From: Pelagibius sp.
GTDB lineage: Bacteria > Pseudomonadota > Alphaproteobacteria > Kiloniellales > Kiloniellaceae
Reading direction: 5' to 3'
NCBI RefSeq assembly: GCF_028289705.1
Contig: NZ_JANQOI010000178.1
Location: forward strand, 1-51,997
Length of the DNA stretch: 51,997 bases
The translations under genes and the position numbers were made by a program. A model generated the notes under the pieces. That model was given only the letters and a program-made list of their open reading frames with translations. It did no database searches and was not told where the DNA came from. The number at the start of each line of letters is the position of its first letter. The first letter of the stretch is position 1. This document shows, in pieces, positions 21,465-49,935 of the stretch.

Positions 21465-22613
21465 TTATTGGCGCGGCGCGGTCCTGCTCCTTGCGTTCAG
21501 GGTGCGCAGCGCGGATTCGAAGTCTTCGTGATTGTGATAGCAGCCGCAGAACACACGCTTGCCGGAATAGCCCATGCGGCCGTGCAGCAGGCGCCAGTTG
21601 TCGAAAATCAGCGCCATGCCGGGCCGCAGCGGCACGGTCTGCCAGTTCTCCTGGTTCACGATGCGGGCGTGGAAATCGGCATAGGCGCGGTAGAAGGCCT
21701 TCATGCGTTCCGGCTCGAGGTGGAAGGGCGCGCGGTCGTAGTTGTTGAAGGTCACCTGCGCCAACCGGCCCTGGCCGTCCAGGCGGATGGCCGGGCGCTC
21801 AGCGCGCAGGTGCTGGCCCTCCTCGATGTAGCGCCCCGGCACCGAGACTTCGCAGAGCACCCGGAACAGCTCCGGCTCTTCGCTGCGCATCTGCTCGGCC
21901 AAGGCGAAGCCGTCCACCAGGATCGACTCGCCGCCCGTGCCGTCGAACTCCTGGCAGAGGAAGCACTGCAGGCCCGGCGCGTCGTGGCTATAGGTAGCGT
22001 CGGTGTGGGGCTCCAGGTATTGGGTCGAATAGGCAGTGTCGTCGTGCTCGGTCAGCTCCGCCGAAAGCGACCAGATGCCGCCGAAGATGGTCTCGCGGAT
22101 GTAGCCGAAGCGGCCGAAGAGATCGCGCGCCGAGGCCTCGTCGGTGGGCACCCCGGCGATGACCACGAAGCCGTCGCGCTGCAGCCGCTCGAAGCATGTG
22201 CGCAGGCCGTCCCCCTCCCCGGCGATGGTGCCATAGGCCACCGGCTCAACCACCTGCAGCGGCGATCCGGCGGACCAGAGCCGTGGCGGAATCCTGGCCT
22301 GGGTGTCCCAGTCATCGGCGGCAAGGCCGGCCATGGCGGCCAGGAATTCGGCGCTGTAGCAACTGCGCAGGCCGCTTTCGGGCCAGGTCACGGCCAGCGT
22401 CCGCCCCTCTTCAAGGATCGCGCTATCGGCACCGCGGATCGCCTCGTCCAGGGCGAAGGTATCGACGCGGCGCTGCAGCGTGGCCGGGTCCAGGCTTGCG
22501 GGGCTCTGGTCGTGATCGCGCAGCCAGAACCAGGAAAACCGGCTTTCCGCGCCGTCCCGCCAGCGCAGAACCAAGCCCTCGTCGTTGCCCTCAACCGCCG
22601 CGATCACCGTCAT
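21465..22613 (-). CDS. 2-oxoglutarate dioxygenase, gamma-butyrobetaine/trimethyllysine dioxygenase-like
   Basis: 382 residues with the two-part BBOX/TMLD build. A small N-terminal domain (residues ~1-95: GLVLRWRDGAESRFSWFWLR, CYSAEFL) is followed by a TauD-type oxygenase domain. Iron ligands are His203 and Asp205 in HTDATYSHDAPGLQCF and His344 in WRLLHGRM. FDGTGGESILVDGF, FNNYDRAPF and FCGCYHNHEDFESALR resemble trimethyllysine dioxygenase most. The N-terminal zinc-site cysteines of true gamma-butyrobetaine hydroxylases are not obvious. It should hydroxylate a trimethylammonium acid on its carbon chain. First gene of the leftward operon with transporter and demethylase. Confidence 0.87.
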   Translation of the reverse strand: MTVIAAVEGNDEGLVLRWRDGAESRFSWFWLRDHDQSPASLDPATLQRRVDTFALDEAIRGADSAILEEGRTLAVTWPESGLRSCYSAEFLAAMAGLAADDWDTQARIPPRLWSAGSPLQVVEPVAYGTIAGEGDGLRTCFERLQRDGFVVIAGVPTDEASARDLFGRFGYIRETIFGGIWSLSAELTEHDDTAYSTQYLEPHTDATYSHDAPGLQCFLCQEFDGTGGESILVDGFALAEQMRSEEPELFRVLCEVSVPGRYIEEGQHLRAERPAIRLDGQGRLAQVTFNNYDRAPFHLEPERMKAFYRAYADFHARIVNQENWQTVPLRPGMALIFDNWRLLHGRMGYSGKRVFCGCYHNHEDFESALRTLNARSRTAPRQ

Positions 22614-22761: not shown

Positions 22762-24312
22762 CTATCGCCAGCGCGGGGTAAAGGCGGGCGGCGGAGGAAA
22801 GCGGGAGCGCGCGTCGTGGTCGCTCAGTTCCATATGGCTGCGGGTGTATTCGTCGCCGGCCGCGCGCGGCGGCTGATAGTCCCAGCCGGTGTGCTGGCCA
22901 CGGGTCAGGGCGCCATTGATGAAGCGGCGCCGGGCCTGATCCTCCAAGACCGCCCGCGCCACCGCCTCGGTATCCCAGTGGGCGCCCGCCTGCCGGCGGA
23001 AGTCCGCCAGGACCTCGGCCTGCCCCGGATCGCCGGCCAGATTGGTCAACTCGTCCGGATCCGCCTCCAAATCGAAGAGCTGTTCCGGGTCCCCCGGGCA
23101 GCAGGTGTATTTGAAGCGTCCCTGGCGGATCATCAGCAGCGGCGCGGCCGCGCCCTCCGCCAGATACTCGCTGACCGCCCGGCCCTGATCCGCCTCGCCG
23201 CGGCAGGCCGGCAGCAGGGACACACCGTCCAGCGGATCGACAGGCTCGGGCATCTCGCCGGCACCGCTTTCCGCCGCCAGCGCCATCAGGCTCGGCAGCA
23301 CGTCGACCTGGGAGGCCGGCGCCGCCACCCGCCGCGCCGCGAAGAGCTGCGGTGCGGAGACGATAAGCGGGATGCGCACCGACCACTCATAGAGGCTCAT
23401 CTTGTACCAGAGGCCGCGCTCGCCCAGCATGTCGCCGTGGTCGGAGAGAAACACCACCACCGTGTCGTCGCGCAGGCCGAGATCGGTCAAGGTCTGCATC
23501 AGCCGTCCCAGCCAGTGATCGACGTAGGAGACGTTGGCGTAGTAGGCGCGGCGCGCGCGGCGCACGTCTTCCTCGGTCACCTCGGCGGCGTCGACGGCGA
23601 TGGCCCGTTCGAGGCGCAGGCTGTGCGGATCGTTGGCCTCCGCGGCCGGACGCGCCACCCGCGGCAGGTCGATCTCCTCGCCCTCGTAGAGATCCCAGAA
23701 CTGCCGCCGCGCCGCATAGGGGTCGTGGGGGTGGATGAAGCTGGTCACCAGGCAGAAGGGCCGGCCGTCGCCGTTGCGGGCGGCATCGTAGAGCCAGCGC
23801 AGCGCCTGGGCGCCGACCTCGTCGTCGTAGGCGAGCTGATTGGTGATCTCGGCCACCCCCGCCTGCTTGACGCTGGACATGTTGTGATACCAGAGGTCGA
23901 TGCGCTGCTCCGGCATGCGCCAGTCCGGCACCCAGCCGAAGTCGGCGGGATAGATGTCGGTGGTGACCCGCTGCTCGAAGCCGTGCAACTGGTCGGGACC
24001 GACGAAGTGCATCTTGCCGGAGAGGCAGGTGCGGTAGCCCATGGCCCTCAGGTAGTGGGCGAAGGTCGGCAGGGTGCTGGGCAGGTAGGCCGCGTTGTCG
24101 TAGCCGCCGAAGCGAGAGACATAGCGCCCGGTCATGAAGGCATAGCGCCCCGGCGTGCAGAGCGGCGAGTTGCAATAGGCGCTGTCGAAGACCACACCCT
24201 CCGCCGCCAGGGCGTCGATGTGGGGCGAGCGCACCAGCGGGTGGCCGTAGCAGCCGAGCGCGAAGGGCGTGAGCTGGTCGGCCATGACGATGAGAAAGTT
24301 GGATGCGGCCAT
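22762..24312 (-). CDS. betC: Choline-sulfatase
   Basis: 516 residues. The formylglycine site is Cys52 in SPLCTPGRYAFMTG (C-x-P-x-R). Stretches such as SGKMHFVGPDQLHGFEQRV, TTDIYPADFGWVPD, AGVAEITNQ and SDHGDMLGERGLWYKM are nearly what I remember of Sinorhizobium BetC, and the choline-sulfatase C-terminal tail is present. It hydrolyses choline-O-sulfate to choline and sulfate, feeding glycine betaine synthesis or carbon/nitrogen supply. AGGGAG precedes the ATG. It is 148 bp upstream of the dioxygenase-led operon and on the same strand. No betA, betB or betI lies in the window. Activity requires a sulfatase-maturing enzyme from elsewhere. Confidence 0.93.
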   Translation of the reverse strand: MAASNFLIVMADQLTPFALGCYGHPLVRSPHIDALAAEGVVFDSAYCNSPLCTPGRYAFMTGRYVSRFGGYDNAAYLPSTLPTFAHYLRAMGYRTCLSGKMHFVGPDQLHGFEQRVTTDIYPADFGWVPDWRMPEQRIDLWYHNMSSVKQAGVAEITNQLAYDDEVGAQALRWLYDAARNGDGRPFCLVTSFIHPHDPYAARRQFWDLYEGEEIDLPRVARPAAEANDPHSLRLERAIAVDAAEVTEEDVRRARRAYYANVSYVDHWLGRLMQTLTDLGLRDDTVVVFLSDHGDMLGERGLWYKMSLYEWSVRIPLIVSAPQLFAARRVAAPASQVDVLPSLMALAAESGAGEMPEPVDPLDGVSLLPACRGEADQGRAVSEYLAEGAAAPLLMIRQGRFKYTCCPGDPEQLFDLEADPDELTNLAGDPGQAEVLADFRRQAGAHWDTEAVARAVLEDQARRRFINGALTRGQHTGWDYQPPRAAGDEYTRSHMELSDHDARSRFPPPPAFTPRWR

Positions 24313-37997: not shown

Positions 37998-38801
37998 TCA
38001 AAGCAGTTCGGCGTAGCCGAGGGCCTCGGCTTCGGTCTCCATATCGACGATCCGGTCGTAGGCAGCGACCGGCATGACCACCACATCGGCCAGCAACAGC
38101 GCGGAGCGCAGGTCGCGGAGTGACGGGTCGTCAAAGACGCGGCGCAGGCCGCTGCGCAGCCGTTCCAGATCGGCGGCGGGAATGTCGAGGCGGGTGATGT
38201 AGGGCAGCGCCGGGGCCGAAGGGCTGGCCATCAGGCGGCGCAGGCCGGCAACGGCTTCTGGCTGAGCCTTGGCCAGCAGATGATAGGTCACGGTGTCCAC
38301 GGCGCAGACATCGGCGGTGTCGCCCGCAACCGCCGCCATGGAGTGGACATGGCCGCCGCTGCGCGCGACCGAGGCGAAGAAGCCCTGCCCCCCGGCCAGC
38401 GGCGCGATGACCGCGCGCAGGGCGTTGTAGCCGCTTTGCGATCCCAGCTCGTTCACCACGGCCCGGGTCCCGCGCAGATCCTCAGGGCCGCGGATGGCGG
38501 AGTCCGCCCGCACCAGGATCTCGCTGTGATAGTGCCCACCCTGGCAGCCGGGACAGTCGTAGACGGGGGTGGCCAGCAGGGTCACCTGCCCCTTCAGGGC
38601 ACGGGTCAGGGGATAGCCGCAGGTCTGACTGAACAGAAGGTCCGGTGCCTGCCAGAGCGCCGCAAGATCGCCGCCGCGCGTCAGCCGGTCAGGCACGCCC
38701 TGCAGGCCCTCGGCCCGCAAGGCCTTTGCCAGACCGGCCCACCAGCCGTCGGTCTGTTCTTTGAGGGCCGGCAGGTCGTACATCGGCAGGGAAGCCTGCA
38801 T
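37998..38801 (-). CDS. PhnD-like (phosphate/phosphonate-type) binding protein without signal peptide
   Basis: 267 residues. The type-2 periplasmic binding fold shows as LPMYDLPALKEQTDGWW, LLFSQTCGYPLTRAL, LVRADSAIRGPEDLRGTRAV, VNELGSQSGYNALRAVI, AAVAGDTADVCAVDTVTYHL and a C-terminal helical part. No signal peptide or lipobox precedes MQASLPMYDL, so it is predicted to stay in the cytoplasm and may act as a sensor or enzyme rather than a transporter component. No permease or ATPase lies next to it. It is third in the HTH-GFA operon, 2 bp after the GFA gene. Confidence 0.82.
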   Translation of the reverse strand: MQASLPMYDLPALKEQTDGWWAGLAKALRAEGLQGVPDRLTRGGDLAALWQAPDLLFSQTCGYPLTRALKGQVTLLATPVYDCPGCQGGHYHSEILVRADSAIRGPEDLRGTRAVVNELGSQSGYNALRAVIAPLAGGQGFFASVARSGGHVHSMAAVAGDTADVCAVDTVTYHLLAKAQPEAVAGLRRLMASPSAPALPYITRLDIPAADLERLRSGLRRVFDDPSLRDLRSALLLADVVVMPVAAYDRIVDMETEAEALGYAELL

Positions 38802-38803
38802 CC

Positions 38804-39265
38804 TCAGTCTCCGCGCGCCGGGCCGCCACCCCGCGCTTCCCGAGCTTCCCGCGGCCAGGGGTCCTCCTGGCCCTGCGGCAGGCGCGGCAAGCTGTCGCCG
38901 ATCTCATAGAAGTCGGCCTTGTCGTCGGTATAGATGTGGCACAGCGTGGTCAGGCCGCTCGGCTGGTCAAGGCTGCCCGCAGAGACCGAGACGAAGTCGT
39001 TGTCCGCCTTGTCCCAGAACAGCGCCGAGCCGCAGCGGCTGCAGAAGCCACGCCGCACGCCCGGCGAGGAGACGTACCAGGTGATCGCCTCCTCCCCCTC
39101 GATTAGGAGGTCCCCGCGCTGCGCTGCTGAGAAAGCGGCGAAGTTGCTGTAGCTGCGCCGGCACTGGCCGCAGTGGCAGGCGACCGCCGGGCGCATCGGT
39201 CCTGCCACCCGGTAGCGCACGGCACCGCAGAGGCAGGCTCCGGTTCGTGTCGGCGCCGCACTCAC
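38804..39265 (-). CDS. GFA/CENP-V domain zinc protein
   Basis: 153 residues from GTG 39265, overlapping the regulator's stop. Zinc-binding cysteines occur in GACLCGAVRY, ACHCGQCRR and GFCSRCGSALFW, which is the glutathione-dependent formaldehyde-activating (Gfa/CENP-V) fold. Original Gfa promotes formaldehyde-glutathione adduct formation, though many relatives have other unknown thiol chemistry. Given that the window's demethylases release formaldehyde, a detoxification role is conceivable, but its operon partners do not point there. Confidence 0.88.
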   Translation of the reverse strand: MSAAPTRTGACLCGAVRYRVAGPMRPAVACHCGQCRRSYSNFAAFSAAQRGDLLIEGEEAITWYVSSPGVRRGFCSRCGSALFWDKADNDFVSVSAGSLDQPSGLTTLCHIYTDDKADFYEIGDSLPRLPQGQEDPWPREAREARGGGPARGD

Positions 39266-40149
39266 TGCGCCCGAGCCCGCTTCAAGTCGTGCTTCTCGCG
39301 CACTTCGATTTCCTCCAAAAGGCCCGTCAGCAGCTTGCTCACGTCCGGCGGCTGCACCACCGCACCGCGGATCAGGTCGTCGAAATGCTGGGTCAGGGCG
39401 CGGATGTGTTCGGTGGAATTGAACACGAAATACATGTTGCCGATGTAGGCCGCCGCGCGGGTCGGCCCGAAGATGGTGATCGGCGCCGAGTAGTGCTTCA
39501 GACCGTCGAACAGAAACCAGCGGAAGGTCGGGTAGAGCTCATCCAACAGCGCAATCATCCAGGAGAGCTGCAGCTTGCGGTCGGCCAGCGGCAGGGTCGA
39601 CCAGATCCCCTCCCCGCGCGCGAAGGCCTCCACCGACTGAATGGACGCGCAGGCTTCCAGGTCGGTCTCCGGCCGCCGGCTGTAGGCCAGGCGCGCCTCG
39701 GCCTGTTCCATGCGAAAGGCCGGCACCGCGCTGCCCTGCTGGCGGTACTCGAAGCGGATCACCTCCTCCCCCTTCAGGAGGTCCGGCAGGGTCGAAGGAA
39801 CATAGCGGATCTTGTAGCCCACCGCTTCGGCACGCCAGCGCGCCAGCCGCTCGTCGGCGTAGGACGACGCCCCGGTGGCGATTTCCGGCGCCTCGCTCAG
39901 GATGTTGGTGCCGATCTTCTCCTCCTGCACCAGACCCAGCAGCCAGTCGCTGGAGACCTGTTCGTGTTCGGCGATGGTGGCGATGGTCTCGGCGCGCGGC
40001 AGGCGGTCGTTGGTTTCGGAAAGGAGCTGGGACAGCGTGGAGCGGTCGATCCCCGCTTTTCGCGCGAAGGCCGAGCGGCTGAGCCCCGAGCGATCGATGA
40101 CCTCGGTTAAACGTTCGCGAAAGATTTCGACGGTAAGACGACGATCCAT
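39262..40149 (-). CDS. XRE-type HTH transcriptional regulator with an uncharacterised C-terminal domain
   Basis: 295 residues. An XRE helix-turn-helix occupies residues ~8-65 (FRERLTEVIDRSGLSRSAFA, RKAGIDRSTLSQLLSE). The remaining 230 residues form one domain of alternating sheet and helix (VGYKIRYVPSTLPDLLKGEE, GDGLKHYSAPITIFGP-like, YIGNMYFVFNSTEHIRALT). The ending suggests a ligand or effector domain as in other short-regulon XRE proteins. It heads the HTH-GFA-PhnD operon and has an AACAAA-6 nt-TTTGTT inverted repeat just before its start, suggesting autoregulation. Confidence 0.85.
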   Translation of the reverse strand: MDRRLTVEIFRERLTEVIDRSGLSRSAFARKAGIDRSTLSQLLSETNDRLPRAETIATIAEHEQVSSDWLLGLVQEEKIGTNILSEAPEIATGASSYADERLARWRAEAVGYKIRYVPSTLPDLLKGEEVIRFEYRQQGSAVPAFRMEQAEARLAYSRRPETDLEACASIQSVEAFARGEGIWSTLPLADRKLQLSWMIALLDELYPTFRWFLFDGLKHYSAPITIFGPTRAAAYIGNMYFVFNSTEHIRALTQHFDDLIRGAVVQPPDVSKLLTGLLEEIEVREKHDLKRARAQ

Positions 40150-40328: not shown

Positions 40329-41381
40329 GTGTTCGAGGAGGGAAATCTGCCCGGCTCAGAGGCCGGGCCAAGCGGCGAACTCGGGTCCGGTCAGAGCCTG
40401 AGCCCGACCGTCAGTGAGGTCGGTGTGCGGCCCGCCGGCAGCCAACGCCTGCCCGCCCGCATCGAGATCCCGACCCTTCTGTTGGCCGCCGTCCTCTATG
40501 GCGCGTTCGGCGTCCTCACCTGGTTCCACGAGGTCCTGCCCTGGTGGGTCCTGCTGCCGCTGGGCGGCTATCTGGTGGCCTGGCACGGCTCGCTGCAGCA
40601 CGAGGTGGTGCACGGCCATCCGACCCCCTGGGCCTGGGTCAACGAGGCCCTGGTCCTGCCGAGCCTCTGGCTGTGGATCCCCTTTCGGATCTATCGCGAC
40701 AGCCATCTGGCGCATCACAACGATGCGATCCTCACCGATCCCCTGGAAGATCCGGAATCCTTCTATCTGACGCCGGAGGCGTGGCGGACGGCCGGGCCGC
40801 TCACTCGCGCCTTCCTCTGGGCGCACAACTCCCTGGCCGGGCGCCTGCTGCTCGGGCCCCTGCACTGCCTCTGGCAGCTCTGCGCCGCAGAGGGCAGGCG
40901 CCTGCTGCGCGGCGACCTCTCCCACGCCAGGGCCTGGCTGCTACATTTTGCGGGCGTCGCGCTGGTGCTGGGCTGGGTGCTGGCGGTCTGCGGCCTGCCG
41001 TTCTGGCAATACTTGCTGTTCTTCGTCTACCCGGGCATCGCGCTGACGCTGCTGCGCTCCTTCCTGGAACACCGGGCCATGCCCGACCCTGCCGAGCGCT
41101 CGGTGATCGTCGAGGCCGGACCGCTGTTTGCGCTGCTGTTTCTCAACAACAACCTGCACGTCGTCCACCACGCCAAGCCGGGCCTCGCCTGGTATCGCAT
41201 CCCGGCGCTCTACCGCAGCGACCGCGCGCGCTTCCTTGCCGCCAACGGGGGCTATCTCTACAGAGGCTACAGCGAGGTTTTCCGGCGTTACTGCTTCCGC
41301 GCCAAGGAACACCCGCTGCATCCCGGCGAAAGACGGACCGACCGGCCGGATGTCGGGATGGTTCTTGAGGGCGCGGACTAA
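40329..41381 (+). CDS. Membrane fatty acid desaturase family protein
   Basis: 350 residues from GTG 40329. Three histidine boxes for a di-iron centre are visible: HGSLQHEVVHGH, DSHLAHHND and NNNLHVVHHAKPG. Four to six hydrophobic segments flank them (LLAAVLYGAFGVLTWF, WWVLLPLGGYLVAW, LHFAGVALVLGWVLAVCG, LLFFVYPGIALTLL). The first ~45 residues are a soluble tail. It should act on acyl chains or a related lipid in the inner membrane. It is divergent from the XRE operon; a hairpin (41376-41399) overlaps its stop. Confidence 0.87.
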   Translation: MFEEGNLPGSEAGPSGELGSGQSLSPTVSEVGVRPAGSQRLPARIEIPTLLLAAVLYGAFGVLTWFHEVLPWWVLLPLGGYLVAWHGSLQHEVVHGHPTPWAWVNEALVLPSLWLWIPFRIYRDSHLAHHNDAILTDPLEDPESFYLTPEAWRTAGPLTRAFLWAHNSLAGRLLLGPLHCLWQLCAAEGRRLLRGDLSHARAWLLHFAGVALVLGWVLAVCGLPFWQYLLFFVYPGIALTLLRSFLEHRAMPDPAERSVIVEAGPLFALLFLNNNLHVVHHAKPGLAWYRIPALYRSDRARFLAANGGYLYRGYSEVFRRYCFRAKEHPLHPGERRTDRPDVGMVLEGAD

Positions 41382-43817: not shown

Positions 43818-45362
43818 CTATGCTGCTTCTGCACCCCCCTCCGCCGTTCGCCGGGCGACGAAGGCGTCCAGTTCTTCCTTGACCGCCGGATCCAGCGGCG
43901 GCGGGCTGTAGTCCGCCAGCACGGCCTTGAACAGGCGGTTGGCGCGCTGGGTGGCGGTTTCGCTGCCCGCCTCCTCCCAGGTCTCGAAGTTGCGCCAGTC
44001 GGAGAGGATGGGGCTGTAGAAGGCGGTCTCGTAGCGCTCCAGAGTGTGGGCGGCACCGAAGAAGTGGCCGCCGGGGCCGACCTCACGGATCGCTTCCAGC
44101 CCGATGGCGTCCTCACTGACGTCCAAGGGGCGCAGGAACTCCGCCATCATCTGCAGCATCTCCGCATCCAGCACGAACTTCTCGAAGGAGGCGCAGAGCC
44201 CGCCCTCCAGCCATCCGGTCCCATGCATGACGAAGTTGGCGTGGCCCATCACCGCACCCCAGATCGACATCTGGGACTCATAGGCCGCCTGGGCGTCGAC
44301 GCAGTTGGCGGCATTGGCGTTGGAGGAGCGGTAGGGGATGCCCAGATGGCGGGCGAGCTGCCCGCCCGCCAGGGCGGCGCGACTGTATTCCGGCGTGCCG
44401 AAGGCCGGCGCCCCGGACTTCATGTCGACGTTGGAGGTGAAACCGCCGTAGATCACCGGCGCGCCGGGATTGACCAGTTGGGTGAAGGCAAGCCCCGCCA
44501 TGGCCTCGGCATGCTGCTGGGCCAAGGCGCCGGCCACCGTGGCCGGGCTCATGGCGCCGGAGAGAGTAAAGGGCGTGATGACCACGGCCTGGTTGCGCCG
44601 CGCCAGTTCGATCAGCCCCTCGATCATCGGCCCGTCGAGACGCAATGGCGAGGAGGTGTTGATGATGGAAAAGAGGCAGGTCTTGGCCGCCAGCTCGGAC
44701 TCCGTCAGCCCATGGCCGATGCGCACCAGTTCCAGCGCATCGAGGATGCGGGTGCGGCCGAGGGAGTAGGCGTGAAACACCTTGTCGGTGAGTGTCAGGC
44801 AGTCGCGCAGGCAGTCCAGATGCCGGGTCGCCGGCGGCAGGTCGACGGGCTCCACCGGATAGCCGGCGATGAACTGGACGATGTTGAAGGCCTGGGAGAG
44901 CCGCAGCAGGTTTTGATAGTCCTGCTGGTTACCGGGCCGCCGGCCACCGTCGAGGTCCGAGGCGTTGGGTGCCGAGGCGATGCTGCCGAAGGCGATGTGG
45001 CGCCCGCCGATCTCCAGATTGTGGGCCGGGTTGCGGGCATGCAGGGTGAAGCGCGCCGGCGCCTTCGCCAGAGCCTCCTGAATCAGGCCCCGGTCGAAGC
45101 GCACCCGCTCGCTGCCCGGCTCCACCGTGGCGCCGGCCTTGGCGAGGATATCGAGGGCCTCAGGATGGAGGAAGTCCATGCCGACTTCCTCCAGGATGCG
45201 GAAGGCCGCCTCGCTGATGCGCTCGACATGATGGTCCCGCAGCACCCGGATCGGTTCGTAGGGGTTTTCCAGCAGCCGCCAGTCGAGCTGTTTCAGAGCG
45301 CCGCCCGGCCTGCGCTCGCCCTGCCCGCGCCGCCCCCCGCGGCGTGAGGTCTCCCGTGCCAT
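43818..45362 (-). CDS. Trimethylamine methyltransferase (MttB) family protein, non-pyrrolysine type
   Basis: 514 residues from ATG 45362, with GGGGAG 6 nt upstream. The MttB barrel is shown by ISEAAFRILEEVGMDFLHPE, PFTLSGAMSPATVAGALAQ, MKSGAPAFGTPEYSRAALA, DAQAAYESQMSIWGAVMGHA and GWLEGGLCASFEKFVLDAEM. The frame is uninterrupted, without the in-frame amber codon of pyrrolysine MttB. It therefore belongs to the large group whose studied members (MtgB on glycine betaine, MtpB on proline betaine) demethylate quaternary amines with a corrinoid protein. No corrinoid protein gene is adjacent. It is divergent from a sarcosine-oxidase-like flavoprotein. Confidence 0.9.
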   Translation of the reverse strand: MARETSRRGGRRGQGERRPGGALKQLDWRLLENPYEPIRVLRDHHVERISEAAFRILEEVGMDFLHPEALDILAKAGATVEPGSERVRFDRGLIQEALAKAPARFTLHARNPAHNLEIGGRHIAFGSIASAPNASDLDGGRRPGNQQDYQNLLRLSQAFNIVQFIAGYPVEPVDLPPATRHLDCLRDCLTLTDKVFHAYSLGRTRILDALELVRIGHGLTESELAAKTCLFSIINTSSPLRLDGPMIEGLIELARRNQAVVITPFTLSGAMSPATVAGALAQQHAEAMAGLAFTQLVNPGAPVIYGGFTSNVDMKSGAPAFGTPEYSRAALAGGQLARHLGIPYRSSNANAANCVDAQAAYESQMSIWGAVMGHANFVMHGTGWLEGGLCASFEKFVLDAEMLQMMAEFLRPLDVSEDAIGLEAIREVGPGGHFFGAAHTLERYETAFYSPILSDWRNFETWEEAGSETATQRANRLFKAVLADYSPPPLDPAVKEELDAFVARRTAEGGAEAA

Positions 45363-45724: not shown

Positions 45725-47059
45725 ATGACCGTACTTCCGGAATCGAAAAGCTATGTCATCGCCGGGGCCGGCATTCACGGCCTCTCCACCGCCTGGCATC
45801 TGGCCATGGAGCTGGAGGCCCGCGGCAAGGGCTCCGGCAAGGACATCGTCGTCCTCGACAAAACCGCGCCCGGCGCTGGGGCCAGCGGCATCGCCTGCGG
45901 CTGCGTGCGCAACTTCTACATGACCGAGGCGCTGCACCCCATCCTGCGCCACTCCGTCGACGTCTGGATGGAGGACCCGGTGCGCTTCGGCTTTCAGCAG
46001 GTCGGCTACATCTCCGTCGGCGAGGAGAACCAGGTCGCCGACTACGAGCGCATGACCAAGAGCCAGAACGCCGCCGGCTATCACTCCGACATCTATGTCG
46101 GCAAGGAGGCCAAGGACTTCCTGAGAGGTTACTGGCCGGACTTCAACACCGAGAACGTCGGCGTCGCCATTCACGAGAAACCTTCGGGCTACGCTGGCAC
46201 CCGTCAGGCCATCGCCGGACTCGCCGAGAAGTGCGCCCAGCACGGCGTGCAGATCCTCTCCGGCGTCGAGGTGACCGGCTACGACCTCACCAACGGGCGC
46301 ATCTCCAAGCTGCACACCAATCTGGGCGACATCGCCTGCGACGTCGCGGTGCTCTGCTACGGCGCCTGGATCGGCAAGCACTGGGAGATGCTGGGCAAGG
46401 CCGACACCATCGAGGCGAAGTATCCCGACGGCGGCACCAACACGCTGGACATGTGGACCTACTGGCGCCTGCTGGAGGGCGAGGTCTACATCGACCAGCC
46501 CTACCGCGACAGCCGCGACCTCGACCCGCCGGTGCTCCACGTCGAGTTGATGAACACGCCGGTGGTGAACGAGGAGACCGGCGCGGAGATCTCCGACCAC
46601 CTCTACGTCTACTGGAAGAACGGCGCCGAGCGCATGGAGCGTGCCGGGGTGCAGGGCGGCACCATCCCCATCAAGATCGGTCCCAAGGCGGTGCTCGATC
46701 CCTACGGCTGGGACAACGCCGAGTACCAGGCCGACGAGTGGTTCGCCGACTACCTGACCGCCGCCATGGGCTATCTCATGCCGCGCTTCAAGGGCCATCG
46801 GAAGAACTTCAAGGACCGGCCCAACGGCGGCATCGGCGCCTTCACGCCGGACAACGTGCCGATTTTCGACTGGATCCTGCCCAACGCCTACATGATCGCC
46901 GACTCCAACCACGGCTTCAAAATGACCGGCGTCGGCAAGCTGGTGGCCAGGATCCTGGCGGGCGACAACCGGGTGGCGGAGCTGGAGCCCTTCGCCTTCT
47001 CGCGCTTCGCCGAAGGCCGCACCTTCGGCGCCTCCAACAGCCACTGTCCCTGGGTCTAG
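45725..47059 (+). CDS. FAD-dependent oxidoreductase, sarcosine-oxidase-beta-like (DAO family)
   Basis: 444 residues; AAGGA 9 nt before the ATG. The FAD motif is YVIAGAGIHGLSTAWHLA, then GASGIACGCVRNFYM where family members hold the flavin. A substrate domain follows, and the C-terminal signature is FTPDNVPIFDWI then ADSNHGFKMTGVGKLVARIL. DAO-fold enzymes oxidise N-methyl or secondary amines. Its divergent pairing with an MttB-family methyltransferase suggests it handles the partly demethylated amine, or removes methyl groups in parallel. Substrate unassigned. Confidence 0.88.
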   Translation: MTVLPESKSYVIAGAGIHGLSTAWHLAMELEARGKGSGKDIVVLDKTAPGAGASGIACGCVRNFYMTEALHPILRHSVDVWMEDPVRFGFQQVGYISVGEENQVADYERMTKSQNAAGYHSDIYVGKEAKDFLRGYWPDFNTENVGVAIHEKPSGYAGTRQAIAGLAEKCAQHGVQILSGVEVTGYDLTNGRISKLHTNLGDIACDVAVLCYGAWIGKHWEMLGKADTIEAKYPDGGTNTLDMWTYWRLLEGEVYIDQPYRDSRDLDPPVLHVELMNTPVVNEETGAEISDHLYVYWKNGAERMERAGVQGGTIPIKIGPKAVLDPYGWDNAEYQADEWFADYLTAAMGYLMPRFKGHRKNFKDRPNGGIGAFTPDNVPIFDWILPNAYMIADSNHGFKMTGVGKLVARILAGDNRVAELEPFAFSRFAEGRTFGASNSHCPWV

Positions 47060-47137: not shown

Positions 47138-48673
47138 GTGACCGACAGCCCCTCACCCATCGCCCTCACCGGACAGGATCTCGACGCCGGGACCCTGGCC
47201 GAGATCGCGCGCGGCGGCCGCGGCGTTGCCATTGCGCCAGAGGCCAAGGCACGTCTGGCAGCAGGCCGCAGCGTGGTGGAAGCGGCCATCGACAGCGGCG
47301 CGGCGGTCTACGGCATCACCCGAGGTCTCGGACCGCAGGTGACCCACAGCCTGGATCGCGGCGAGCTGGCGGACTTCTCCCTGCGCACCCTGCGGGGACG
47401 GGCCCACGGCATCGGCCCCGCCCTACCACGCGACCAGGTGCGCGCGGTCATGGCGGTGCGGCTGAACGGCCTGCTCAACGGCGGGGCCGGGATTACCCCG
47501 GCCATTGCCGAGTTGCTGGCCGAGTTCCTGAACCGAAAGCTGCATCCGGTCCTGCCGTCCATCGGCTCCGTCGGGGCCAGCGACCTGCTGATCCTCGCCC
47601 ACCTGGGTCTCGCGCTGGTCGGTGAGGGAGAGATCGAGTCCGGCGGGGTTGCCCGCCCGGCCGCCGAGGCCCTGGCCGAAGCGGGACTGACCCCGGCGAC
47701 CCTCGGCCCCAAGGACGGTATCGCGCTCTGCAGCGCCTCGTCCTTCTCCGCCGGCCTCGCCGGCCTGCTGCTCCATGATACCGCCGCGCTCTGGCGCCTC
47801 GCACAACTGGCGGCGGCGCTGAGCCTGGAGGCCTATCGCGGCAACCTCTCGCCCCACGACCCGGCGGTGACGGCAGCGCGTCCCGCCCCCGGACAGACCG
47901 CCGCCTCGGCCCATCTGCTGGAAACCCTGACGGGCAGTGCGCTGATGGACCAGAGCCAGGCCCGCCGCCTGCAGGACCCGATCTCGCTGCGCGCCGTCGG
48001 CCCTGTCCACGGCAGCCTGCTGGCGGCCCTGCAATTCCTCGCACCCGCCGTCCTCGCCGAGATCAACGGCGCCGGCGACAACCCGCTGGTGGTGGCGGAA
48101 CGGGAGACCCTGATCGCCAACGCCAACTTCCACACGCCCGCTCTGGCCTTGGCGCTCGAGACCCTGGGTCAGGCCTTTGCGCAAACCGGGGCGCTCTCGG
48201 TGTCGCGCGCCGCCAAGCACCTGACACCGCGCCTCAGCGACCTGCCGGACAGCCTGTCGCCGCGCGGGCCCGGCAACACCGGCTACGCGCCCTTTCTGAA
48301 GACCGGCGAAGCCCTGCTGCAGGAGCTGCGCCATCTCGCCCAGCCCGCCATCCCCGACCTGCGCTGGGCCGCCGACGGCGTGGAGGACGACATCACCGCC
48401 GCTCCGCTGGCCGCCAAGAAAGCGACCGACGCGCTGGGGCGGCTGCGCCTGCTGCTCGGCGTCGAACTGATGGTCGCCGCCCAGGCCCTTGAACTGCGCG
48501 CGCCCGAAGGCGTTGCGTCTGTCGTCGCCGACGCCCTGCAGAGCATCCGCACCGCCGTGCCCCGGCTCGACGAAGACCGTTCCCTCGCCGGCGATCTGGA
48601 GAGGCTCGACCGGGACCTCCTGCAGACCGGCCTGCTGTTGTCGCAAGCGCGAGTCCCGCCCCTTCCAGACTGA
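47138..48673 (+). CDS. Histidine/aromatic ammonia-lyase family protein with altered MIO motif
   Basis: 511 residues from GTG 47138. The fold is clearly HAL-like: Tyr58 in VYGITRGLG, GSVGAS near residues 143-148, LQDPISLRAVGPVHG, NGAGDNPLVV and the helical C-terminus. The MIO cofactor normally forms from Ala-Ser-Gly in GSVGASGDLAPLAH. Here the sequence reads GSVGASDLLILAH, so A147-S148 is followed by Asp149 and one residue is missing. YGVNTGFG has also become YGITRGLG. Standard MIO chemistry may therefore be lost. Ergothionase, as I recall it, is a lyase that eliminates trimethylamine from ergothioneine. With an MttB-family gene nearby, a trimethylammonium-lyase is plausible. It lies 78 bp after the flavoprotein, same strand. 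Confidence 0.85.
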   Translation: MTDSPSPIALTGQDLDAGTLAEIARGGRGVAIAPEAKARLAAGRSVVEAAIDSGAAVYGITRGLGPQVTHSLDRGELADFSLRTLRGRAHGIGPALPRDQVRAVMAVRLNGLLNGGAGITPAIAELLAEFLNRKLHPVLPSIGSVGASDLLILAHLGLALVGEGEIESGGVARPAAEALAEAGLTPATLGPKDGIALCSASSFSAGLAGLLLHDTAALWRLAQLAAALSLEAYRGNLSPHDPAVTAARPAPGQTAASAHLLETLTGSALMDQSQARRLQDPISLRAVGPVHGSLLAALQFLAPAVLAEINGAGDNPLVVAERETLIANANFHTPALALALETLGQAFAQTGALSVSRAAKHLTPRLSDLPDSLSPRGPGNTGYAPFLKTGEALLQELRHLAQPAIPDLRWAADGVEDDITAAPLAAKKATDALGRLRLLLGVELMVAAQALELRAPEGVASVVADALQSIRTAVPRLDEDRSLAGDLERLDRDLLQTGLLLSQARVPPLPD

Positions 48674-48772
48674 AGGTGTTCGCATCAGGAGTTCATCCCG
48701 GCCGAGGTGCTTCCCTTCCTCGCAAGGCTGGGATATACCCCGGCGGCGCAGCGCGCGCAGGCGGCGGACATT

Positions 48773-48784
48773 TCACATTTGTGA
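48773..48784. promoter_or_regulatory. Dyad TCACATTTGTGA upstream of phnM
   Basis: TCACA-TT-TGTGA, a perfect dyad 17 bp before the phnM start. Operator-like, binder unknown. Confidence 0.35.
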
Positions 48785-48801
48785 CAGGTGGGGGCAGGAC
48801 C

Positions 48802-49935
48802 ATGACGACGTCTGTTTGCCTGAAGGGCGGTCAGGTGCTGACGCCCCAGGGCGATCTCGAAATTGCCGATGTTCACATCGCCGAAGGCCGGATCGTCGAG
48901 TCGCCGGCGGCCGACAGCCTGACCATCGATTGCCGCGGGTACTGCGTGCTGCCCGGCATGGTCGACGTCCATGGCGACGCCTTTGAGCTGGAGCTGCATC
49001 CGCGCCCGGGCGTCGATATCGCCTTTCCCATCGCCATGGGCTCGGTGGACCGGCAATTGCTGGCCAACGGCATTACCACCGCCTTTCACGGCTTGACGTT
49101 GTCCTGGGAGCCGGGCGCGCGCAGCCTCGACGCCGGGCGCCGCTTTATGGATGGGCTGCAGGCTCTGCGCCCTCGCTTGACGGCCGATCACCGGGTTCAA
49201 CTGCGCTGGGAGACCTTTGCCCACGACGCCATCGAGGATCTCGGCCGCTGGCTCGGCCAGCAGCCGACGCCGGCCATCGCCTTCAACGATCACACCACCG
49301 CGACCATGGAAAAGGTCCAAGCCGGCAACCACAAGAAGCTCGGCCAGTGGGCCCAGCGCGCCGGCCTCTCGGTGGAGCAATACCTGGCCGAGGTCGACGC
49401 CGTCGGGCGCCGCGCGCCGGAGGTCCCGGCCAAGATACGGGAGGTCGCGGGTCTCGCCCGCCGGCAGAACGCCATCATGCTGTCCCATGACGAGCGAAGC
49501 TGTGACGAGCGCGCGACCCACCGAGATCTCGGGATGCAGGTCTGCGAGTTTCCGCTGGCCCGTGTGGTGGCCGAAGACGCGGTCGCCCGCGGCGAACACG
49601 TCATCTTGGGCGGCCCGAACGTCATTCGGGGCGGCAGCCACACCGGCGCCATGTCAGCCGAGGAGGCCATCGGCGACGGCCTCTGCACCGTGCTGGCCTC
49701 CGACTACTACTACCCCAGCCTGTTGCACGCCGCCGAGGGTCTCGTCGATCGCGGCGTGCTGTCCCTGAGCGCGGCCTGGGACCTCGTCTCCAGCAACCCG
49801 GCGGCGGCGATGGGGCTGCAGGATCGCGGAAGGATCGAGGTCGGTTGCCGCGCCGATGTCGTCGTGATCGACTGCTCCGGTCCCTGGCGCCTCGTCCACA
49901 CCCTCGCTGGCGGCGAAGTCGTCCTCAGGCTCTGA
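48802..49935 (+). CDS. phnM: Alpha-D-ribose 1-methylphosphonate 5-triphosphate diphosphatase (PhnM)
   Basis: 377 residues from ATG 48802, matching the size of E. coli PhnM. Amidohydrolase metal-binding motifs are VLPGMVDVHGDAFELELHPR, AFNDHTT and IMLSHDERSCDE. GGPNVIRGGSHTG and ASDYYYPSLLHAA are PhnM signatures. In C-P lyase pathways it removes pyrophosphate from the triphosphate intermediate. No other phn gene, apart from a distant PhnD-like protein at 37998, is in the window. It follows the lyase gene by about 130 bp. Orphan phnM copies could serve a C-P lyase set elsewhere or act on another phosphoester. Confidence 0.92.
   Translation: MTTSVCLKGGQVLTPQGDLEIADVHIAEGRIVESPAADSLTIDCRGYCVLPGMVDVHGDAFELELHPRPGVDIAFPIAMGSVDRQLLANGITTAFHGLTLSWEPGARSLDAGRRFMDGLQALRPRLTADHRVQLRWETFAHDAIEDLGRWLGQQPTPAIAFNDHTTATMEKVQAGNHKKLGQWAQRAGLSVEQYLAEVDAVGRRAPEVPAKIREVAGLARRQNAIMLSHDERSCDERATHRDLGMQVCEFPLARVVAEDAVARGEHVILGGPNVIRGGSHTGAMSAEEAIGDGLCTVLASDYYYPSLLHAAEGLVDRGVLSLSAAWDLVSSNPAAAMGLQDRGRIEVGCRADVVVIDCSGPWRLVHTLAGGEVVLRL

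Follow-up and report, generated by a model that had tools for sequence, protein, structure and literature searches.

The 51,997-nucleotide stretch of Pelagibius DNA analysed here (the window) encodes an aromatic amino acid lyase that has lost the glycine of the MIO-forming A-S-G triad. The protein is probably a cofactor-free C–N lyase of the ergothionase kind that acts on an Nα-methylated histidine, most likely releasing trimethylamine. Taken part by part, an ergothionase-like elimination is likely, trimethylamine is a probable leaving group, and hercynine itself is a tentative choice of substrate. The first-pass annotation had advanced a similar idea, in which a neighboring MttB-family methyltransferase and a DAO flavoprotein use the amine. 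Its loss of MIO and its kinship to ergothionase stand—on a one-residue loop gap, a lysine, and a top PDB match by both sequence and fold—whereas the enzyme is not simply an ergothionase, and MttB and DAO are not dedicated partners. Feature coordinates are collected in Table 1.

Table 1. Lyase gene, its diagnostic codons, and neighboring genes in the window.
Feature	Position	Strand	Remarks
PhnD/SsuA-like binding protein, recurring neighborhood	37998..38801	-	PF12974; 6/48 maps
HTH regulator, recurring neighborhood	39262..40149	-	5/48 maps
FA_desaturase-family membrane protein, recurring neighborhood	40329..41381	+	PF00487; within seven genes in 6/48 maps
MttB-family methyltransferase	43818..45362	-	PF06253, E 2.9e-206
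DAO-family FAD oxidoreductase, directly upstream of lyase	45725..47059	+	PF01266; also in lyase-less congeners
MIO-less aromatic amino acid lyase family protein	47138..48673	+	511 aa; PF00221, E 5.9e-123; below hutH cut-off; 6s7j top PDB match
Tyr58 codon, HAL Tyr53 column	47309..47311	+	Tyr in 42/43 clade rows, gap in one
Arg88 codon, HAL His83 column; the clade's own mark	47399..47401	+	Arg in 42/43 clade rows
Altered MIO loop GSVGAS-DLLILAHL, residues 143-156	47564..47605	+	One residue shorter than HAL
Asp149 codon, HAL Asp145; retained despite loss of the MIO glycine	47582..47584	+	43/43 clade rows
Arg285 codon, HAL Arg283 column	47990..47992	+	43/43 clade rows
Lys388 codon, ergothionase-type Lys	48299..48301	+	35/43 clade, 7/7 ergothionase-type, 0/15 HAL rows
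Glu416 codon, HAL Glu414 column	48383..48385	+	43/43 clade rows
PhnM-type amidohydrolase, downstream of lyase	48802..49935	+	NCBIfam NF011987, 394 bits, cut-off 253; longer ORF 48676-49935

The lyase ORF opens with GTG and keeps an intact frame, and PF00221 (Lyase_aromatic) covers its product near full length (profile positions 3–465 of 466). Against the NCBIfam hutH model, the protein scores 357.3 bits, below the 539.15-bit cut-off, and so falls outside the hutH equivalog; a second, normal histidine ammonia-lyase (HAL) in the same genome (G000:C173) carries A-S-G and scores 619 bits with PF00221 and 687.5 bits with hutH. The codons from 47564 (GGC TCC GTC GGG GCC AGC GAC CTG) encode GSVGASDL where HAL reads GSVGASGDL, bearing out the earlier observation that GSVGAS is followed directly by DLLILAH. 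Between HAL columns 138 and 150, the window lyase has 12 loop residues against 13 in HAL: The glycine is gone, as first described, but no further loop residue is lost with it. The other motifs named at that stage were found as described, with Tyr58, QDPISLR (279–285), and GDNPL (313–317) kept and the altered YGVNTGFG reading YGITRGLG.

A sequencing error can be set aside because congener L033 (71% identical; L004 is the same gene) and all 43 clade rows of the alignment described below share the gap, the frame is intact, and the codons are constrained: Positions 1, 2, and 3 differ between the lyase and L033 at 20, 17, and 45%, respectively, over 508 codons, the pattern of protein constraint. 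A pseudogene was rejected on the same grounds. Judged from its residues, the window lyase almost certainly works without MIO.

Relatives were gathered at several taxonomic levels. A genome-contig search supplied 23 loci; matches were found in 22 of 23 genomes of the family (HALs included), in 18 of 61 genomes of the order at E 1e-76, and in 13 of 385 genomes of the class, the window's genome being counted in the latter two. On plasmids, 584 records matched, HALs included, and five of these were examined. The initial alignment omits L002 and L003, which represent the window gene itself, along with the short L052, L054, and L055; 12 of its 29 ASGDL rows (L001 and L026 being one gene) were carried into a 72-row MAFFT alignment of 43 clade, 7 ergothionase-type, 15 HAL (the 12 carried rows plus three plasmid HALs), 5 Bosea-type, and 2 three-residue-loss rows. 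The ergothionase-type rows comprise Treponema denticola 6s7j, two relatives, and four lyases from thiourocanate hydratase loci; only the T. denticola ergothionase (6S7J) is characterized. Left out of the tree and the 43-row count were the truncated L063, L116, L117, L099, and L118, together with L040 and L043 (near L041), L035 and L105 (contigs of L104 and L034), and L061 (the L001 gene). HAL_L032 lacks the glycine and is hence counted as MIO-less despite its row name, and a Salinicola lyase (L155) lies outside the row counts.

The MIO glycine is gapped in 43/43 clade rows and 7/7 ergothionase-type rows and in none of the 15 HAL rows, and many clade members read A-G-D or A-A-D instead of A-S-D. 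Relatives occur in Alphaproteobacteria, Salinicola, and Streptomyces. Further MIO-less groups lie outside the clade. The five Bosea-type rows (one from another genome) form an odd group; the Bosea lyases themselves (L049 9998-11446, L050, L051, L053) read GSMGQ-SDM and have Leu for the Glu of the Glu414 column. The two rows with a three-residue loss, L157 10642-12264 (the L048 lyase gene) and L047 9962-11449, read GSVGY---L and represent a second type of MIO loss, branching beside HAL; the Salinicola copy sits between HutU and HutI.

Despite the missing glycine, the HAL Tyr53, Gln277, Arg283, Glu414, and Asp145 columns are each retained in 42 or 43 of the 43 clade rows. We take HAL Arg283 to be the carboxylate binder and the lysine of ergothionase to be catalytic. 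The window lyase combines the Tyr/Arg/Glu set with that extra Lys, as ergothionase-type lyases do (Tyr58, Arg285, Glu416, Lys388). The HAL His83 column, which presumably lines the side-chain pocket, is His in 15/15 HAL and 7/7 ergothionase-type rows, whereas it is Arg in the clade; the Arg88 and Lys388 assignments are MAFFT columns, not structural coordinates. Because the Lys and the other columns are shared while the His83 column holds Arg, the clade appears ergothionase-like in its mechanism marks yet distinct in one specificity mark. Eight members with Leu or His in place of the ergothionase Lys (L036, L038, L039, L059, L104, L106, L108, L111) form one branch, and their chemistry may differ.

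An AlphaFold2 model built on a 28-sequence alignment (mean pLDDT 92.6; 57 in the weakest block, which contains Glu416) predicts the HAL/ergothionase fold, and with the alignment it places the protein among MIO-less aromatic amino acid lyases. By E-value, Foldseek ranks ergothionase 6s7j first (6.4e-35, TM 0.91, 31% identity), ahead of tyrosine aminomutase 3kdz (2.6e-32) and HAL 1gk2 (1.7e-31, TM 0.92); by TM-score, ergothionase and HAL are level. A phmmer search of the PDB gave 247.6 bits for 6s7j, 225.3 for Thermoplasma HAL 7tqr, and 199.2 for Pseudomonas putida HAL. The modeling and alignment that the first-pass annotation had proposed as a check support its ergothionase kinship through the shared gap, the shared Lys, and the top match. 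In a quick tree built without the loop columns, the 43-row clade has a support of 98, and the window lyase and L033 form a pair supported at 100. The MIO versus MIO-less label maps as one change; because the dividing branch has a support of 35 and L047 and L048, both MIO-less, attach beside HAL, the tree fits single and multiple losses of MIO alike.

Comparison with known systems places the protein near, but apart from, ergothionase. The T. denticola enzyme (6S7J, 6S7Q), whose structure was reportedly described by Maurer in 2019, shares the fold, a Gly-less loop one residue shorter than that of HAL, and the Tyr/Arg/Glu/Lys columns; it differs in overall sequence (31% identity), in its loop (SSIGEGDI), and in retaining the Ser-His pair of HAL where the window lyase has Gly-Arg. 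Lyases at four of five thiourocanate hydratase loci carry the same gap and Lys as the window lyase. These lyases (L124–L127), which their neighborhood suggests are ergothionases, match it in loop length and Lys but are 27–29% identical to it, have an Ala-His pair, and occupy a separate tree branch. HutH of P. putida (1B8F/1GKM) has the Pfam family, the fold, and most catalytic columns in common with the window lyase and differs in having A-S-G, MIO, and His83 and no Lys. Tyrosine and phenylalanine ammonia-lyases and aminomutases, which are MIO dependent, belong to the same family and fold and score lower against the window lyase by sequence.

According to a published report, ergothionase lacks MIO and splits ergothioneine into trimethylamine and thiourocanic acid (PMC13405746). 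The kinship to ergothionase and this reported chemistry make loss of trimethylamine from a histidine betaine the leading interpretation. Having kept the fold of HAL and most of its catalytic columns but not the MIO glycine, the lyase would expel an amine that leaves readily by itself, most likely trimethylamine. The substrate would most likely be hercynine (histidine betaine) or a derivative of it substituted on the ring, and the products would be trimethylamine and a (substituted) urocanate that enters the hut pathway. Tyr58, Lys388, and Glu416 may carry out the acid/base work and ring polarization, Arg285 may hold the carboxylate, and Arg88 may read the side chain. An Arg in the pocket His column is odd for an unsubstituted imidazole and counts against hercynine. 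YeiH-type sulfate exporters in L130, L134, and L136 (that of L134 above its cut-off), NtaA/DmoA-type monooxygenases in L131 (one above its cut-off), and two LLM-class monooxygenases in L132 (by annotation) go beyond what hercynine alone explains. Together with Arg88, these exporters and flavin monooxygenases keep a substrate bearing a sulfonate or some other substituent conceivable.

Gene neighborhoods connect the clade to histidine catabolism. Six genomes of the order (L033, L092, L093, L094, L096, L117) have HutF or HutI no more than seven genes from the lyase. At L093, the lyase is accompanied by HutU, HutG, HutI, and HutF, with HutI between HutG and HutF; this HutU is canonical, scoring 980 bits with hutU (cut-off 375) and 685 with thiourocanate hydratase (cut-off 930). 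The order HutU-HutI-HutG-lyase recurs in Salinicola L155, where HutU is 82% identical to that of L093 and the lyase is of the clade type (62% identical to the Rhizobium L130 lyase). HutC precedes the lyase on Rhizobium johnstonii pRL12 (279 bits, cut-off 220) and, by annotation, in Martelella; within the window, no hut gene adjoins the lyase. Because the lyase sits in hut clusters in these six genomes and in Salinicola, a hercynine-type substrate appears most likely, and the simplest reading of the product is urocanate or something close to it. Another PF00221 match is present in all 12 lyase genomes checked (at least 595 bits in ten; A-S-G confirmed in two, G000 and G019), so histidine breakdown is independent of the lyase gene. 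One Salinicola contig (L155 5813-18615, L157 7295-13545) holds an ordinary HAL and two hut sets with MIO-less lyases: HutF/HutU/HutI/HutG followed by a clade-type lyase, and a second HutF/HutU/HutI set with a GSVGY lyase.

What tracks the lyase is not MttB or DAO but a gene of the ornithine cyclodeaminase family (OCD), which lies outside the window and was therefore invisible to the first-pass annotation. At E 1e-90, it is found in 16 of 18 lyase genomes versus 5 of 43 others in the order (Fisher p 1.2e-8, uncorrected for relatedness); at this threshold, two lyase genomes are without OCD, and five genomes have OCD but no lyase. Within the window's genus, both lyase genomes have OCD and six others have neither gene; in genus g2, two genomes have both and two have neither. 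OCD lies on a contig other than that of the lyase in G001 and G002, and the window genome carries it on contig G000:C92, beside a HutF fragment and 90% identical to the L033 copy. On plasmids, a search at E 1e-60 matched OCD in 84 records, of which 83 are 60–80% identical. Across the 14 plasmid stretches examined—five fetched by the lyase and nine by OCD—OCD occurs with the MIO-less lyase in nine (L129–L135, L138, L140); another three (L136, L137, L141) combine it with ordinary HAL, and the remaining two (L139, L142) contain no lyase of either kind. The nine OCD-fetched stretches hold the MIO-less lyase in four cases (L134, L135, L138, L140), HAL in three, and neither in two; because ordinary HAL or neither lyase also occurs there, OCD is no pointer to trimethylamine. 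The OCD protein scores below cut-off with SbnB (135 of 327 bits) and with its best match, archaeal alanine dehydrogenase (180 of 409); our guess is that it removes N-methyl groups or performs imine chemistry, acting on the same molecule as the lyase. L139 7552-14038 holds OCD, a PhnD-like protein, a desaturase, an MtgC-like corrinoid protein, and a corrinoid activase relative, with no lyase in the stretch.

Genes around the MIO-less lyases were compared in 48 distinct maps, of which 26 are incomplete on one side. Within seven genes of the lyase, the maps show an OCD-family gene in 14/48, MttB in 8/48, and HutF or HutI in only 7/48 (one of these, L048, lying outside the clade), as labeled by our own ORF caller and blastp; unlabeled genes may hide known ones (e.g., HutI in L093). 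At L033, MttB is the eighth gene from the lyase. L093 and L096 unite PhnD-like, HTH, desaturase, MttB, lyase, OCD, and HutF genes in one stretch, and L094 does the same with DAO replacing MttB. In L042 and L102, from unrelated genomes, MttB adjoins the lyase. The PhnM-like gene downstream of the window lyase was considered as a conceivable HutI substitute. None of the 48 relatives' maps places a PhnM-type gene within that seven-gene range. L102 2343-12632 contains the lyase, an OYE-type reductase, an SBP5 importer, MttB, and an M24 protein (DddP 388 bits, cut-off 600).

MttB occurs at E 1e-130 in 18/18 lyase genomes of the order but also in 30/43 lyase-less ones. The syntenic region was examined in four of the six lyase-less congeners, with MttB in 4/4 and DAO in 3/4; HutF/HutI lies near MttB in three of the four, and the fourth contig ends first. 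The proposal that MttB and DAO use the released amine thus fails as a dedicated partnership, since lyase-less congeners keep both, and dedicated amine use was rejected as the primary link. Since the two adjoin in some unrelated genomes, a looser link between lyase and MttB may exist. The MttB superfamily includes MtgB, a glycine betaine methyltransferase (PMC12478193). The window's member lies about 1.8 kb upstream of the lyase on the opposite strand; it is a separate gene, present independently of the lyase, and scores 303 bits with TIGR02369, under the pyl-type trimethylamine methyltransferase cut-off of 525. In L144, L145, L148, and L143, from the window's genus, MttB stands beside HutF/HutI without a MIO-less lyase (three of four; the fourth contig ends), and its substrate there may be an N-methylated histidine.

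The first-pass annotation described the region as a methylamine island. The window does contain quaternary-amine genes, among them a choline sulfatase (729 bits, cut-off 433) and, below cut-off, relatives of gamma-butyrobetaine/trimethyllysine dioxygenase and of the GbcA Rieske oxygenase; it also holds a DAO-GcvT fusion. The choline sulfatase (22765-24312) stands beside the dioxygenase relative (21468-22613). The MttB locus is, however, kept without the lyase, and because 30/43 lyase-less genomes and the congeners retain MttB, the quaternary-amine genes of the window are no proof that the lyase supplies it with an amine.

Several alternatives bear on the identity of the enzyme. A plain ergothionase is weakened by the 42/43 clade rows with Arg88, where an ergothioneine-specific enzyme is expected to have His in the His83 column, and by the canonical HutU of L093. 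A search for thiourocanate hydratase (NF058530, E 1e-250) gave no match in the window's genome (G000), whose assembly is 96.9% complete, and the NCBIfam families listed for this lyase or for the MIO-less lyases scanned include no ergothionase model. The substrate might instead be ergothioneine sulfonate (2-sulfohercynine) or a similar oxidized ergothioneine, with Arg88 binding the sulfonate, the lyase freeing trimethylamine, and sulfite later leaving via a YeiH-type exporter. We regard this sulfonated histidine betaine lyase as unlikely, although Arg replaces the pocket His in those 42 rows, YeiH-type exporters lie in the L130, L134, and L136 stretches, and a PhnD/SsuA-family protein occurs in 8/10 annotated OCD stretches examined. 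An OYE-type reductase and an M24-fold protein, moreover, accompany the L102 lyase, and Yan (2022) reportedly described an ergothioneine sulfonate pathway with enzymes of these kinds. Against it, the canonical HutU by the L093 lyase fits unsubstituted urocanate better, the L136 exporter stretch is without a MIO-less lyase, no YeiH-type exporter was seen among the window genes scanned, and the placing of Arg beside an anion is a guess.

A different amine might leave, if an opine-like or aminopolycarboxylate-like N-substituted histidine were split and OCD cut the other C–N bond. To our knowledge, all characterized MIO-less members are trimethylamine lyases, and OpuAC-type (glycine betaine class) binding proteins accompany L041 and, by annotation, L130, L131, and L135; these points make this alternative quite improbable, even with the sub-cut-off SbnB match of OCD (135 of 327 bits), the above-cut-off NtaA/DmoA monooxygenase of L131, the SBP5-type importers of L042 and L102, and the occurrence of OCD beside MIO-type HAL in its favor. 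Could the protein be a HAL paralogue that has degenerated or turned regulatory and no longer acts as a lyase? The normal HAL in the same genome and the score well under the hutH cut-off would allow it; the retention of Tyr58, Gln279, Arg285, Glu416, and Asp149, each in at least 42 of 43 rows, the codon constraint, the spread of relatives across Alphaproteobacteria, Salinicola, and Streptomyces, and the tracking partner gene render it very unlikely. We give almost no credence to an ordinary ammonia-lyase that still forms MIO from A-S-D: Ala-Ser is present, but the cyclizing Gly position is absent from 43/43 clade rows, many members have A-G-D or A-A-D, and the T. denticola ergothionase, with the same gap, represents an enzyme that is reportedly MIO-free (PMC13405746).

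On balance, we retain the reading as a cofactor-free lyase of an Nα-methylated histidine. Cofactor-free trimethylamine elimination is already known from ergothionase (PMC13405746). The novelty lies in a large, separate clade, frequently labeled hutH, that has a pocket residue and a tracking gene of its own and is linked to the hut pathway. A literature search by title and abstract opening, covering few subscription papers, returned no paper about this clade. With some reserve, we suggest that the clade may represent a broad unrecognized MIO-free lyase family that, with an OCD-family enzyme, opens a second entrance to the histidine pathway for an N-methylated (perhaps sulfonated) histidine; we know of no characterized enzyme for such a compound. 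Where checked, annotations in the clade are mostly hutH (e.g., histidine ammonia-lyase on R. johnstonii pRL12), and public records thus label such genes histidine ammonia-lyase despite the missing defining residue. The missing Gly together with Arg88, and usually Lys388, provides a simple test that separates the clade from HAL. If its members do release trimethylamine from histidine betaines, they would mark an uncharted route from hercynine- or ergothioneine-type compounds to glutamate and trimethylamine in soil, marine, and root bacteria, and they would show how a single fold can either expel ammonia with a cofactor's help or, without one, a better leaving group.
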